This document shows, in pieces, positions 6,002 to 19,187 of a DNA stretch of 64,000 nt. Made by a program: the position numbers and the translations under genes. Position 1 is the stretch's first letter; the number at the start of each line of letters is the position of its first letter. A model generated the notes under the pieces. That model had not been told where the DNA came from, did not search any database, and saw only the letters and a list, made by a program, of their open reading frames with translations. This DNA comes from Paenibacillus sp. 1781tsa1 (lineage in GTDB: Bacteria; Bacillota; Bacilli; Paenibacillales; Paenibacillaceae), in NCBI RefSeq assembly GCF_024159265.1, contig NZ_JAMYWY010000001.1, positions 4,154,001-4,218,000 on the forward strand, given 5' to 3'.

Positions 6002-6030
6002 ATTATAAAGGATAATCAATTAATAGTCAA
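6002..6030 (-). promoter_or_regulatory. Strong sigma-A-like early promoter
   Basis: Read leftward: TTGACT (6030-6025), 17-bp spacer, TATAAT (6007-6002). The -35 box overlaps by two bases the palindrome at 6029-6044. Confidence 0.75.
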
Positions 6031-13140: not shown

Positions 13141-14177
13141 TTAACCATCTCTCCTTTGTTTTTGATTGTTTCTCGTGCATCTCTTTTCATTTGGGTCAGC
13201 ACTCCATGGTTTTGTTGCATAATCAACTCGATAAGTTCTTCTTTTGAAAGCTTTTCTAGTATGGAATCTTCAATTTTTTCTTCCATTCTTAAGCTAATGC
13301 TATTAGAGCGGTCTTCGTTAACGTGTCTATAATAGGTTTCAGTTGTTGAGACATTCGTGTGATTAAGATGTTTTTTGGCTTCTTCCAATGTTCCAAATCC
13401 AGCAGCTACATTCCTTAGACTGTGAAATTTTATATTTCTTTCAGGAGAAATCCCCATCTGTTCTTTCAAGTTGTCCATCATAACCTGAATCGTTTTGGTT
13501 GAAAGATGAAAAATTTTATCGTCGCCATACCTCCCGTAGTATTTTTGATTCTTTATAAGTAATAACTCACTGTATAACTCTTTGGAGATTGGAACAGTGT
13601 GTTTTTTGCCACCCTTCCCAACAGTGTGAATATTATAATATCCTCTGTTATCATCTAATTTAATATCGGAGTAGCAGATTGACAATAATGTACTTTTGCG
13701 GAAACTTGCTGTGTAAGCTAATCGGACGAAAGCTGCCTTTTCAATGCCTTTAACTTTTTCTTCTCGTAGTAATGAGGCCATCATTTCTGCTTCATTGTAA
13801 TATAAAGCTCCGCTTCGCTCTGAGTCATCTGGTAGAACCTTTACTTTAGCAAATTTCGAATTGACGTCATATTCATTGATCTCAAGGAATTCATAAAAAC
13901 TTTGTATGGCTGCCATAATGTTGTTTATTGAGTTATTTGAGTAATCAATAGGATGCTCTTTTAGATATATCTGATAACCAATTAAATCTGCATTTCTAAT
14001 TTTCATATCCTCTCTCACTAGCATTTCAATATCTTTACCTTTATACCACATGTAAAAGCTTCTTAATGAGCGTTCGTAATTTTTCTGAGTGTGAACACTG
14101 TTGAATTTTTTCAAATATGTTCTCATATCATCAAATACCGAGTTATTATGTAGACCCACTACATTTACGGTTTGCAT
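13137..14177 (-). CDS. Tyrosine-recombinase-fold protein
   Basis: 346 residues starting MQTVNVVG at 14177 behind GGAGGGGATACAA. N-terminal SAM-like core-binding domain (about 25-115), then a catalytic domain with every expected residue: Arg in SFRKSTLL, Lys in VGKGGKKH, HSLR, His in LNHTN and Tyr in ETYYRHV. A helical tail of about 60 residues follows. It is first in a leftward operon with the RecD2-like helicase. SPbeta-type phages carry recombinase-fold proteins of two kinds: real recombinases and the repressor YopR, which has this fold without recombinase activity. The intact active site favours a recombinase; its position beside an operator-bearing divergent promoter favours a regulator. 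Confidence 0.75.
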   Translation of the reverse strand: MQTVNVVGLHNNSVFDDMRTYLKKFNSVHTQKNYERSLRSFYMWYKGKDIEMLVREDMKIRNADLIGYQIYLKEHPIDYSNNSINNIMAAIQSFYEFLEINEYDVNSKFAKVKVLPDDSERSGALYYNEAEMMASLLREEKVKGIEKAAFVRLAYTASFRKSTLLSICYSDIKLDDNRGYYNIHTVGKGGKKHTVPISKELYSELLLIKNQKYYGRYGDDKIFHLSTKTIQVMMDNLKEQMGISPERNIKFHSLRNVAAGFGTLEEAKKHLNHTNVSTTETYYRHVNEDRSNSISLRMEEKIEDSILEKLSKEELIELIMQQNHGVLTQMKRDARETIKNKGEMVN

Positions 14178-14317: not shown

Positions 14318-14512
14318 TTGAAGAACAAACACATTAAAGGAAATCACTCAACTATCACTTGGGAGGATCGATACTATGATGGATTTGAAGTAGATACATA
14401 TGATGCGAAAATGGTGTCCGATTGGATGCGAGATGGAATACATGATTGTGTTGAATACATAGATGTTTTGGATAATGAATATTTCTGGTATAAGAGTATT
14501 GCAAACAAATAA
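14318..14512 (+). CDS. Small acidic protein upstream of the RNA polymerase
   Basis: 64 residues from a TTG behind GAGGAGCAGCAAT. Acidic and aromatic (TITWEDRYYDGFEVDTYDAK, then a W-M-R-D-G-I-H-D-C turn). It is the first gene of the rightward unit, 23 bp before the RNA polymerase. In SPbeta a small gene also lies next to yonO; whether the two are homologous I cannot tell. A partner of the polymerase is possible but unproven. Confidence 0.6.
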   Translation: MKNKHIKGNHSTITWEDRYYDGFEVDTYDAKMVSDWMRDGIHDCVEYIDVLDNEYFWYKSIANK

Positions 14513-14535
14513 TACATATAGTAAAGGATGTTTGA

Positions 14536-17130
14536 ATGGCACTGGATAAGCAAGTATACATATATAGCGTTGATACGAGCGCCTTCTTTACATTAAAAGA
14601 AAGATTATTGCGAAAAGAAATCAACCGAGCAAAACTGAAAAACGAGAAAGACAAGGTTAAGGAATTAGAAACTAGTTTTCGAGCAGTTATAGATTCAAAC
14701 GTTAATCTAAAGCGAAACTTAAACCCAAATAGTTTGTCTATCAATAATAAAGTATCTCTTTTTGAGTCTTCACTCACTCGTACACTTGGTTTAGTAGAAA
14801 ATCAGACATACGAAGACGTTATCATTGTCGAAACTCATTACTACAGTGTATTTGACAGTCTAGTGGAGAACGGGTTCACTCTAAATGGTGAGGAGTATGT
14901 TCCATTTACTGCGTCTGCTGGACAAATCAGAACTAAGAAAACCGTCTTTATGAAAAAGGAAACTTGGGAAGAAGTCAAACTCACCCTAATGTGTGGTCTT
15001 ACTGAAGAGCGAATCAATAATCACTTTGACACTGGTAAAAACAACAAAAGGCTATATGGTGTTAGCATTAATAAATACTTGGCCTACTTAGCATTATGTT
15101 CGAGCGCAACTGATCTATGGGGCAAATTCAATATTGATCGCTCAATCGTTGTGGAAGATTTTGAAACTTCAATCAATACTACCGTAGACTTCGTTGATGA
15201 TGTCAACTATACCGTCCGTCGTAGAAAAATGGATGTGCCAGTGTGCCACACGGATGGCTGCGGTATGATTTTACCAAAGAAGAGCAAGAAAGCCTTTATG
15301 GTTCGTCTACCTTGGGTTAAAGGCTTACTCGTTCCCTTCCCATTTGATAAATTTGTGGGAGAAGACAATAGAATTGTAACTGATATATATGGTAAGAAAC
15401 ACGACATTATTAAAGATAAGATAGAAGTTATCTTCACTAAGTCTCAGTTTAAGATGTGGAAATACTATCAAAGTTGGGATGAGTATAAGTCACTCTACAA
15501 GAAGCATAACTGTCATGCCAGTGTAACTAACACAGAAGAAGATGAATTAAGCTCTGCTCGACTTTGTTATCAAATGTTGCAAACACTAACTCTAATTTCC
15601 GAAGAAGAGTTAGACCAACTTGTATCAGCTACTCGTAATGACATCCAAGAAACAGTAAGTAACCCTGACGAAATGCTCAACCTGTTGGGGGCAACAAAGG
15701 GGAAGTTCGAAGATAAGAACAATCTACAACAATCATTATACATATATCCAGAGCTCTTATTAGATCCTCACGTAAAAACTAAACTTAAGGAAGCCAAGGC
15801 TAGTTTAATGAGGAAAGTATATACGGGAAAAATCAAAGTTGATGGATGCTATACTTTCATTGCTCCTGATCTGTATGCATTTTGTGAGTATTTGTTCAAT
15901 GGAAATAAAAAACCAATAGGACTACTTTTAGATGGCGAAGTTTCATGCGTTTCAATACCCGACAAAGATAAAGTCGATTGTTTGAGAAGTCCACATCTTT
16001 ATAAGGAACATGCGGTCAGATCTAATGTAGTTGATGATGTGACCCGAGAGTGGTTTGTTAGTAAAAGTGTTCATACATCTATCCACGACCCTATCAGCAA
16101 AATCCTAATGTTTGATTGTGACGGAGATAAAGTGACAGTAAGTAACGATAAAACATTAGTAAAAGTAGCTGAAAGGAATATGGAGGGCATTGTACCGCTC
16201 TACTATGATATGAAGAAAGCCCCAGCAGAGAAAATCAGTCGAAATAGCATCAAGAAAAATTTAAAAAGAGCTTTTAGCGGAAATATTGGAATCATCAGCA
16301 ACGATATTACAAAGTTGTGGAACAGCGATTCAGTAGATGTAGATCTAGTTAAAATCAGAACAATGGAAAATAATTTTGAGATTGATGCAGCGAAAACAAA
16401 TTACAAGCCAGTTCGACCAAAACAAATCAAGACTATGTTTAAGCCATTTAATAAAATGAAGATGCCCCATTTCTTTACTTACGAAAAATATAGACTTAAG
16501 CCACAGGACAGAAAAAATAAGAAAGCAAAAAGAATTACTGAATCTTGGAGCAACACAACAACGGTTAATAGGCTGAAAAATATGTTTCCAGATGTTCGAA
16601 TTAGATTTAAATCTGTCTCTGATATGTATGAGTTTGATTATAGAACCTTAATGAGCCAGAGAAGGGATAAAGATGAGATGTATGATGCAGTGTTAAACAA
16701 GTATAGAGATTTAAATGACACTAAGTGGATGCTTTCATCGAGGCAGAAAAGTGGTGATATAAATAACACTGACCAGCTCCCCGTTTATATGTACATAAGA
16801 AATGAATTGTTACAAATACATAGCGATCCCTATTTTGTTACTGATGTTTTAATCGAGTATCTATATAATGGTTCAAACTCTGGATACAAAACAACATTAT
16901 GGTCAAGTTTCGGAGATATAATTGTAGATAATCTCAAAAAAAATCTTGTCTCAAGAATCAAACTATGTGAAAGATGTAATACCGTAATTGATAATAATAG
17001 AAATAAAAGTAACAACTCTAAGAAATATTGTGAAGCCTGTGGAAAAATCGTGGACAATGAGAAGAAAAAAGAGAGAAATTTAACTTATAGGAATAAAAAT
17101 AATAAAAAGTCGGAAACGAAAATTGGCTGA
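14536..17130 (+). CDS. yonO: YonO-type single-chain RNA polymerase
   Basis: 864 residues, close to the length I recall for SPbeta YonO. The catalytic signature of double-psi beta-barrel polymerases, D-C-D-G-D, lies at residues 527-531 and would bind the active-site magnesium. RSPHLYKEH at 484-492 is the companion motif expected upstream of it. YonO-type enzymes are single-peptide DNA-dependent RNA polymerases related to multisubunit RNA polymerase and to cellular RNA-dependent RNA polymerases, and serve phage late transcription. A second feature is a C-terminal zinc ribbon (Cys 811, 814, 832, 835) followed by a basic tail. The gene is made from a host-type promoter and heads the late block. 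Confidence 0.88.
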   Translation: MALDKQVYIYSVDTSAFFTLKERLLRKEINRAKLKNEKDKVKELETSFRAVIDSNVNLKRNLNPNSLSINNKVSLFESSLTRTLGLVENQTYEDVIIVETHYYSVFDSLVENGFTLNGEEYVPFTASAGQIRTKKTVFMKKETWEEVKLTLMCGLTEERINNHFDTGKNNKRLYGVSINKYLAYLALCSSATDLWGKFNIDRSIVVEDFETSINTTVDFVDDVNYTVRRRKMDVPVCHTDGCGMILPKKSKKAFMVRLPWVKGLLVPFPFDKFVGEDNRIVTDIYGKKHDIIKDKIEVIFTKSQFKMWKYYQSWDEYKSLYKKHNCHASVTNTEEDELSSARLCYQMLQTLTLISEEELDQLVSATRNDIQETVSNPDEMLNLLGATKGKFEDKNNLQQSLYIYPELLLDPHVKTKLKEAKASLMRKVYTGKIKVDGCYTFIAPDLYAFCEYLFNGNKKPIGLLLDGEVSCVSIPDKDKVDCLRSPHLYKEHAVRSNVVDDVTREWFVSKSVHTSIHDPISKILMFDCDGDKVTVSNDKTLVKVAERNMEGIVPLYYDMKKAPAEKISRNSIKKNLKRAFSGNIGIISNDITKLWNSDSVDVDLVKIRTMENNFEIDAAKTNYKPVRPKQIKTMFKPFNKMKMPHFFTYEKYRLKPQDRKNKKAKRITESWSNTTTVNRLKNMFPDVRIRFKSVSDMYEFDYRTLMSQRRDKDEMYDAVLNKYRDLNDTKWMLSSRQKSGDINNTDQLPVYMYIRNELLQIHSDPYFVTDVLIEYLYNGSNSGYKTTLWSSFGDIIVDNLKKNLVSRIKLCERCNTVIDNNRNKSNNSKKYCEACGKIVDNEKKKERNLTYRNKNNKKSETKIG

Positions 17131-17137
17131 AAAATGA

Positions 17138-17160
17138 AAACCCTTGATACATAAGGGTTT
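17138..17160 (+). other. Perfect 8-bp hairpin after the RNA polymerase gene
   Basis: AAACCCTT and AAGGGTTT pair perfectly around a seven-base loop just after the stop codon, but no T-run follows. It may stabilise the transcript 3' end or act as a weak terminator. The remaining sequence to 17295 has a TATGC/GCATA inverted repeat and no recognised sigma-A promoter. Confidence 0.4.
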
Positions 17161-17295
17161 CAATAAAATTGAGTGTATTTTAGATAGGTGTTTTAGGGGA
17201 GGTATGCTAATTCACGGCTTAATGACAAGTAACAGAAGTTTTAAATGGCATACTTTCACCAAAAACAAAAAAACAATCACAAGGGAGATTTATAA

Positions 17296-17619
17296 ATGAA
17301 CAAAGCAGATTTGATTAACGTGGTAGTAGAGAAAACGGGTATGACTAAAAAAGATACTGAAAAAGCAATCAATGAAACACTTCAAGCGATTACAGAAGCA
17401 CTTGCAAGTGGAGATAAAGTTCAACTTTTCGGATTTGGTAATTTTGAAGTTCGTGACACTAAAGAGCGCAATGGTGTAAATCCTAAACTTTTGAAAGAAC
17501 TCAAAGAACAAGGCGTAGATGAGGCAACCGCCAAAGCACAAGCGAGTGTATTTATCCCTGCCTCCAAAAAACCAGCTTTCAAGGCCGCCAAAGCGCTAAA
17601 AGACGCTGTAAAAGAGTAA
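17296..17619 (+). CDS. HU-like DNA-binding protein
   Basis: 107 residues with GGGAG before the ATG. N-terminal helices (MNKADLINVVVEKTGMTKKD) and GDKVQLFGFGNFEVRDTKERN match bacterial HU, as does the C-terminal segment FIPASKKPAFKAAKALKDAV. HU is normally about 90 residues; here about 17 extra residues (roughly NPKLLKELKEQGVDEATAK) replace the short DNA-binding arm turn. SPbeta has an HU-like gene (yonN) beside its polymerase gene. Likely packages or bends phage DNA. A terminator follows at 17667. Confidence 0.88.
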   Translation: MNKADLINVVVEKTGMTKKDTEKAINETLQAITEALASGDKVQLFGFGNFEVRDTKERNGVNPKLLKELKEQGVDEATAKAQASVFIPASKKPAFKAAKALKDAVKE

Positions 17620-17666
17620 TTTCATATACTTGTTACATTAGAATAATACATAATTTCAGTATATAT

Positions 17667-17741: not shown

Positions 17742-17936
17742 ATGGCAAAGAATAAAGACAGTAAAACGGTTAATCGTACAGGTACTTTCGATATGGACAA
17801 GATGCAAATTACGGCTGAAGATAAGACCGGAATTCAAACTTATGACGTAAAAGCATTACTTCAAGATTTCGATGGGGAACAAATTTCCTTCACACTAGCT
17901 TCTGACTTTAAGCCAAGTCATGTAGTCGAAGAATAA
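17742..17936 (+). CDS. yonK: YonK-like small protein
   Basis: 64 residues. The pattern GTFDMDKMQITAEDKTG, then TYDVKALLQDFDGEQISFT, resembles SPbeta YonK as I remember it (F-D-M-D-x-M, Y-D-x-K-x-x-L, F-x-G-x-x-x-S-x-T). The position, after an HU-like gene and before a phosphoesterase, agrees. The function of YonK is unknown. The ribosome site is GGGGGC, ten bases before the ATG. Confidence 0.7.
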   Translation: MAKNKDSKTVNRTGTFDMDKMQITAEDKTGIQTYDVKALLQDFDGEQISFTLASDFKPSHVVEE

Positions 17937-17947
17937 GGAGTGAGTTA

Positions 17948-19162
17948 ATGACTCCAAATAAACTATTTAGGGAAGCTGACGAAGGAATTAATGATTACTT
18001 AGTTAGATTGGGAGACAATCAAGAACTATATGGTTTGAATTGGATTCAGATAGCTGATCTACTAAATAAAGAATCAGGCGAGGAATTTTCAGAATCGAGA
18101 TGGCGCAAAGACTACGCTTCATATTCTAAATGGAAACCAATTATTCTTGAGAAATATGCAACTAACGAGGTGGTTGATGAGGTTCAGGATGCAACCATTG
18201 AATTAAAAAAAGAGCGGATTAAACTTCAAACTGAAAAGATTGAGTATAACAAAATGATTCGTGAGCAAGGTAGAGCGGATTTGCTTGAAGAAAAGATTGC
18301 AGAAGCAGTAATTAATCGCCCAACTATACAAATTCCAGATATTTATATCAAAAAGAATAACGCAAAACGTGACTTCCTCTTCCCTATCGCGGACATGCAT
18401 GACGGTGTGTCATTCAAACTGTTTGGATGGGAAGGTGAACTTCTCAATGAATATAGTCCAGAGATTCTAGAGAATCGTATGTGGAAATTGCTTGAAGAGT
18501 TTGTTTCTATTAACGATGAACAAAAGATTAACCATGTCACTCTTCCTAATTTAGGTGATAGCGTTGACGGTATTCTTCGCATGAGTCAGTTAATGAGTCT
18601 CAAAATGGGAGTTACTGATTCGGCGATCCATTTTGCTGAATTTATGAGTCAGTGGTTGAACGAATTGTCGAAGTATTGCATAGTTGACTATTACTCCATC
18701 TTTGGAAACCACGATCAACTTAGATTACTTTCAGGTAAAAGAGATGAATTCCCACATGAAAATGCTCAAAAGTGGATTACTAAGTTGATTTCAGCAAATC
18801 TAAAGGGTAACAAGAATGTTTCAGTAACTAATTGCAATGAATTTATGTATCTAGATATCCTTGGTACAAAAGTGCTTGGGGTTCACGGAGAGAACGAAAA
18901 AAATCTAGAAAACAGTATTAAGGATTACTCTTTAACGTATAGCAAACCGATTCATCTGTTGTTGAGCGGACATTTACATCACTCACACGAGAAGACTATT
19001 GGCATGAATGGAAATCGAGACATTGAATATGTTCAGTCCCCTTCTATTATTGGTATTGATGACTATTCACTAAAACTCAAAAAGACATCAAATGCCGGTG
19101 CTAAAGTGATGATACTCGAAGAAGACAAAGGGCGTACACTCACCTATAACATTAGATTGTAA
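17948..19162 (+). CDS. Calcineurin-like metallophosphoesterase
   Basis: 404 residues with all metallophosphoesterase motifs in order: D-x-H (Asp149, His151), GDSVDG (Asp204), GNHD (253-256), VHGENE and SGHLHH. These bind two metal ions. The N-terminal 110 residues are charged and helical with a possible helix-turn-helix segment (WIQIADLLNKESG), so the enzyme may bind DNA. It lies 11 bp after the YonK-like gene and ahead of the terminase genes, as in SPbeta-type gene order. A role in DNA end processing or packaging is plausible; the substrate is unknown. Confidence 0.85.
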   Translation: MTPNKLFREADEGINDYLVRLGDNQELYGLNWIQIADLLNKESGEEFSESRWRKDYASYSKWKPIILEKYATNEVVDEVQDATIELKKERIKLQTEKIEYNKMIREQGRADLLEEKIAEAVINRPTIQIPDIYIKKNNAKRDFLFPIADMHDGVSFKLFGWEGELLNEYSPEILENRMWKLLEEFVSINDEQKINHVTLPNLGDSVDGILRMSQLMSLKMGVTDSAIHFAEFMSQWLNELSKYCIVDYYSIFGNHDQLRLLSGKRDEFPHENAQKWITKLISANLKGNKNVSVTNCNEFMYLDILGTKVLGVHGENEKNLENSIKDYSLTYSKPIHLLLSGHLHHSHEKTIGMNGNRDIEYVQSPSIIGIDDYSLKLKKTSNAGAKVMILEEDKGRTLTYNIRL

Positions 19163-19187
19163 TTGCAAAGAATACATAAATCGACTA

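Follow-up and report, generated by a model that had tools for sequence, protein, structure and literature searches.

How a single-chain RNA polymerase of the YonO type finds its promoters, and whether it needs other factors, was left open by the paper on SPbeta YonO (PMC5467207), the only member demonstrated to transcribe phage late genes as a DNA-dependent RNA polymerase (PMC5467207). A polymerase gene of this type lies within the 64,000-nucleotide stretch of DNA analysed here (the window). A sequence-only reading had noticed a four-cysteine element and a basic tail at the end of the encoded protein, and had supposed that SPbeta YonO lacks them. The locus raises the questions of whether this C-terminal element sets the enzyme apart from its family and what it contributes to transcription.

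The polymerase and its gene neighbourhood

The reading frame at 14536-17130 (+) is uninterrupted over 864 codons. The polymerase, its parts and its neighbours are located as follows.

14318..14512, + strand: small ORF, 64 aa, at the yonP position (from gene order)
14536..17130, + strand: YonO-type single-chain two-barrel RNA polymerase, 864 aa (from homology, motifs and model)
15985..16011, + strand: RSPHLYKEH motif, residues 484-492
16114..16128, + strand: catalytic DCDGD with the Asp triad, residues 527-531 (DNDGD in SPbeta)
16900..16914, + strand: W789-x3-G793 anchor, at which the finger (SPbeta type) and the short GDIEYLxxxY tail (partner-type polymerases) diverge (from alignments)
16966..17040, + strand: four-cysteine finger CxxC-x17-CxxC, Cys 811, 814, 832 and 835
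17041..17127, + strand: basic C-terminal helix or tail, net charge +6 after Cys 835 (from model and charge count)
17296..17619, + strand: HU-like DNA-binding protein at the YonN position (phrog_379, E 1.5e-28)
17742..17936, + strand: YonK-like protein (phrog_8651)
17948..19162, + strand: YonJ-like exonuclease/phosphoesterase (phrog_284)

The window polymerase matched phrog_8308 with an E-value of 9e-234 and the Pfam RdRP family with an E-value of 3e-13. Its AlphaFold2 model (mean pLDDT 87.8) was compared with the PDB, and residues ~5-807 aligned with RDR2 (Z 22.1), QDE-1 (Z 20.2) and P23-45 gp64 (Z 17.2). Plant RDR2, QDE-1 and the nvRNAPs P23-45 gp64 / P74-26 gp62 share the two-barrel single-chain fold over this range (Z 17-22); the structural alignments reach no further than the start of the finger, which lies outside the aligned core. 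In an alignment with 63 relatives, which are 41-83% identical to the window polymerase, the DxDGD triad and the RSPHLxxEH columns were invariant or nearly so, and R484, P486, L488, E491, D527, D529, G530 and D531 were invariant together with the four cysteines. Judged from this alignment, such conservation of the catalytic residues and the cysteines is far beyond chance. The Asp triad is essential in SPbeta YonO (PMC5467207).

The order of small ORF, polymerase, HU-like, YonK-like and YonJ-like genes equals yonP-O-N-K-J of SPbeta; furthermore, the polymerase gene is located upstream of the HU, yonK, yonJ and terminase genes in the late cluster, as expected for a member of the YonO family. Hence, the sequence-only reading was right in calling the protein a YonO relative, in placing DCDGD at residues 527-531 and RSPHLYKEH at 484-492, and in naming HU-like and YonK-like genes downstream of it.

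In SPbeta, the YonO start site is located upstream of yonK (PMC5467207). Intergenic DNA downstream of yonO was found to contain the word AATACATA(A/T) on the sense strand in 20 of 44 representative loci, as compared to 5.5 in shuffled sequences and 7 on the other strand. The window harbors it at 17645-17653, 19171-19179 and 14508-14519; no clear AATACATA-like word was seen upstream of SPbeta yonK. The element is a possible late promoter or processing site and serves as a lead only. A longer common stretch, approximately CAATACATAT(A/T)TTTA(T/C)TCTT, is present in three copies at window positions 6029 (+), 7514 (+) and 14238 (-) and may serve early genes as operator or promoter. A palindrome, AAACCCTTGATACATAAGGGTTT, is located at 17137-17161 just past the yonO stop codon, and the scan flagged it as terminator-like for the minus strand; the similar CCCTTGATACATAAGG occurs at loci L011 and L070. 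Rfam families were not found between window positions 13900 and 18200. Additionally, yonO-type genes are often split by intervening, intron-like DNA (L006, L079, L082, L084, L087, L088, L120, L121, L168, L178, L179, L181 and L182) and, where annotated, the pieces were entered as separate genes.

The finger of SPbeta-type polymerases

SPbeta YonO (NP_046615.1; Forrest et al. 2017, PMC5467207) proved homologous to the window polymerase over 97% of the chain with 43% identity (tblastn). Both enzymes share the motifs, the gene order and a C-terminal CxxC-CxxC finger with a basic tail, which in the 839-aa protein of SPbeta (SPBc2) consists of Cys 799, 802, 816 and 819 followed by a Lys/Arg-rich tail. 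They differ in the catalytic motif (DCDGD in the window, DNDGD in SPbeta) and in the finger loop, which is four residues longer in the window polymerase (17 as compared to 13), and the tail of the window polymerase is also slightly longer. The same finger was found in phi3T, SPbetaL1/L2/L8 and the Psychrobacillus phage Perkons and, among ~80 related loci examined, in every complete SPbeta-type protein, one other such protein being cut by a contig end. Six of these loci showed the variant CxxC...CxxxC, and a few encoded an additional finger upstream. The Lys/Arg-rich helix after the finger was kept although its sequence drifts.

The four-cysteine element and the basic tail described in the sequence-only reading are real, as the invariance of the cysteines and the charge of +6 attest; the supposition that SPbeta YonO lacks the extension was mistaken, and a ribbon unique to the window phage was rejected because SPbeta YonO bears the same finger. 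Going by the alignments, the window polymerase ends, over its last ~54 residues, in the finger that is standard among SPbeta-type YonO enzymes. The window polymerase is a regular YonO family member with the family-typical finger, and the original finding is therefore ordinary as stated.

The element had been called a zinc ribbon. It does have two CxxC knuckles, Cys 811/814 and Cys 832/835, which are invariant in the alignment; "ribbon", however, may be the wrong name for the fold, as in the models a long helix begins at the second CxxC, an order of elements that appears treble-clef-like, with a pLDDT of only 53-78 for the YonO finger. Pfam zinc families gave no match above cut-off with the window finger. 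The CxxC...CxxC site is probably zinc-binding and treble-clef-like. The main text of the YonO characterisation paper nowhere mentions zinc, cysteine or ribbon (PMC5467207); therefore the finger appears to be undescribed there, though SPbeta YonO was the enzyme used.

A finger-bearing partner protein in a sister lineage

The polymerases of the Bacillus phage BUCT082 and the Enterocloster phage PMBT24 carry no finger, but the next downstream ORF ends in the same finger, which in BUCT082 is followed by a basic tail. Altogether, 47 distinct finger-tailed partner proteins adjoin finger-less polymerases, and most of their genes abut the polymerase gene or overlap it by a few bases. The partners comprise 246-297 aa, with 278 aa in BUCT082, and have a predicted winged helix and, at the end, the finger and a basic tail; examples are encoded at L007:5475-6311, L008:5498-6220 and L091:6772-7599. 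These phrog_30716-like proteins are uncharacterised, and we regard them as candidate transcription factors. Scans of viral contigs with the PMBT24 or TR-TP1 polymerase alone as query found nothing; an alignment was needed as query for the wider search for finger-less polymerase loci.

The four finger cysteines were invariant in 30 aligned partners (22-86% identity). A profile comparison of 63 YonO sequences with the 30 partners gave an E-value of 7.5e-10 and aligned the finger and basic tail only; with the tail alone the E-value was 5.4e-13. YonO proteins and partners alike have a basic tail behind the finger, with a median charge of +6. The SPbeta-type and sister polymerases themselves are homologous up to the finger (E 6e-60, profile comparison). 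After the common W..[FY]G anchor, the SPbeta type continues with the finger, whereas most partner-type polymerases end in a short GDIEYLxxxYxLxxV-like tail, which a strict pattern detected in 18 of 23 partner-type and 2 of 27 SPbeta-type enzymes; in BUCT082 the tail reads GDIEYLNNRYTLKKV. The BUCT082-type enzymes thus combine a homologous core and a GDIEYLxxxY end with the same finger on the winged-helix protein of the next gene (phrog_25339 / phrog_30716). In a phylogenetic tree, finger-bearing polymerases formed one clade (SH-aLRT 100) and finger-less polymerases with a finger partner a second one (SH-aLRT 99), with one long-branch row outside. The neighbour of TR-TP1-type polymerases lacks a finger and is related to the partner's N-terminal half (E 5e-9); therefore, the partner gene may be ancestral and may have been lost in the SPbeta-type lineage, as far as these sequences allow us to infer.

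In a model of the partner (pLDDT 90.8), a helical domain at the N-terminus precedes a winged helix (~94-217) and the finger (221-274). The first CxxC is placed on a hairpin and a long helix begins at the second, which resembles a treble clef more than a classical ribbon; in the YonO finger model the elements follow one another in the same order, though with lower confidence. The N-terminal part resembled known folds weakly (PriX, Z 7.7), and matches of the winged helix were generic; in a second comparison with the PDB, Z was 7.7 or less, which possibly reflects just a common arrangement. Assignment of the partner to a known Pfam family was rejected, as the first member had no match above cut-off and matched PriX, Cdc6_C winged-helix and zinc-ribbon families weakly.

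The distribution of the partner was then compared with the polymerase type, partner and polymerase being searched independently in host genomes. All 18 genomes with a sister-type polymerase (13 from the genus and five more from the family) carried the partner on the same contig. A standalone partner was detected in none of 15 genomes with an SPbeta-type polymerase, save one that also holds a sister-type polymerase, and there it is located beside the latter. Fisher's test on the association of partner and polymerase type gave p about 1e-9, but the genomes are not phylogenetically independent. Full-length partners were present in seven of seven BUCT082-type phage records. A partner hidden elsewhere in SPbeta-type phages was considered and rejected: the partner model gave no full-length match in 26 phage records, and its finger-level matches fell mostly on the polymerase itself, the remainder on a few other ORFs. 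Profile searches detected no partner within SPbeta-type loci; none was found between the window polymerase and the HU-like gene or in the window's own genome. A search of this 7.08-Mb genome with the finger model returned YonO with an E-value of 3.5e-23 and a next match of 0.86, i.e. the module was not found elsewhere. Partner and fused finger are complementary by genome; therefore, the finger stays with the polymerase, whether encoded in cis or in trans. In the papers searched, this distribution of the finger across lineages is not described.

Finger-tailed ORFs that are neither polymerase nor partner amounted to 14 of 1377 at the same loci, a frameshifted partner being classed with the partners. 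A GIY-YIG endonuclease gene directly after yonO (L040:8583-9320) encodes two C-terminal CxxC fingers and is a possible carrier of the module. Mobile elements of ~15 kb from the same genus (L226-L230) contain a large RdRP-like polymerase gene (ORFs of ~1130-1175 aa) and, at a distance of 13-15 kb from it, ORFs of 125-136 aa with a similar finger and basic tail at the C-terminus. Additionally, a 324-aa ORF matching the N-terminal part of the partner was observed in a fragmented genome (G509:C212:5340-5813), in which no YonO-type polymerase was detected.

The proposed role of the finger in transcription

The complementarity in cis and in trans supports a role of the finger in the transcription apparatus; it does not indicate the target nucleic acid. 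On balance, we lean towards the finger being a nucleic-acid-binding module of the YonO apparatus that most likely contacts upstream or promoter DNA at initiation, with the sister lineage providing it in trans. The finger and its basic helix would form a unit needed by the polymerase that would act next to the catalytic core and touch upstream or promoter DNA as transcription begins; the separate winged-helix protein from the abutting gene would contact the polymerase and take over this task in the sister lineage. Upstream or promoter DNA is favoured because the separately encoded finger comes together with a winged helix. From genomic linkage and the winged-helix fold, we infer that the partner may direct the polymerase to its promoter. 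With rather more reserve, we suggest that finger and basic helix form a module dedicated to initiation or specificity, which SPbeta-type polymerases carry themselves and the sister lineage obtains from the winged-helix-finger partner; this partner might then represent a new initiation factor, not of the sigma type, that serves single-chain two-barrel RNA polymerases. A precedent for promoter specificity from a separate phage protein is gp226 of the AR9 non-virion RNA polymerase, a separate specificity subunit of a phage two-barrel enzyme (PMC9209446); the likeness drawn here is one of role. The AR9 enzyme is a multisubunit polymerase with a sigma-like subunit, unlike the single-chain YonO type.

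The main rival, which we consider unlikely though of some weight, is a generic mobile tail that binds DNA or RNA independently of sequence and was gained separately by the polymerase and by its neighbour; it would serve affinity or processivity and not promoter choice. Related fingers do occur on the GIY-YIG endonuclease, on small proteins of the 15-kb elements and, with weak E-values, in several small PHROGs, and because such fingers are found on unrelated mobile-element proteins the module may bind nucleic acids in general and may have been captured repeatedly. However, the window finger has phrog_30716 as its closest PHROG (E 0.0012), the very family that matches the partner (E 4e-11); furthermore, partner and fused finger are strictly complementary, and the module was not found elsewhere in the window's own genome, all of which argues against independent gain of a generic tail. 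Against the preferred reading stands that the partner of TR-TP1-type polymerases has no finger, so that some lineages do without it.

Binding of nascent RNA or of the upstream RNA-DNA hybrid, by which the finger would aid RNA exit and the low-pausing, processive elongation of YonO, appears improbable. YonO parts RNA from template although it is devoid of most domains of msRNAPs (PMC5467207), and the finger is located at the chain end beyond the conserved core, both in keeping with such a function; the winged helix of the sister-lineage partner, however, is usually a sign of DNA. Many treble-clef fingers serve protein contacts, and an HU gene is located downstream of the polymerase in SPbeta, in the window and in several relatives, so that the finger could be a docking or folding element, e.g. 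for HU or packaging proteins, without touching nucleic acid. We consider this highly improbable, as the basic Lys/Arg-rich helix is retained after the finger even though its sequence drifts.

Contact of the finger with upstream or promoter DNA thus remains the reading we prefer. The finger is a small, removable element that is present in the SPbeta enzyme already characterised (PMC5467207), and the pattern in cis and in trans singles out a concrete candidate factor in related phages. Hence, the question left open for YonO becomes testable in Bacillus subtilis phages, and the distribution of the finger offers a direct way to approach transcription initiation by YonO-type polymerases.
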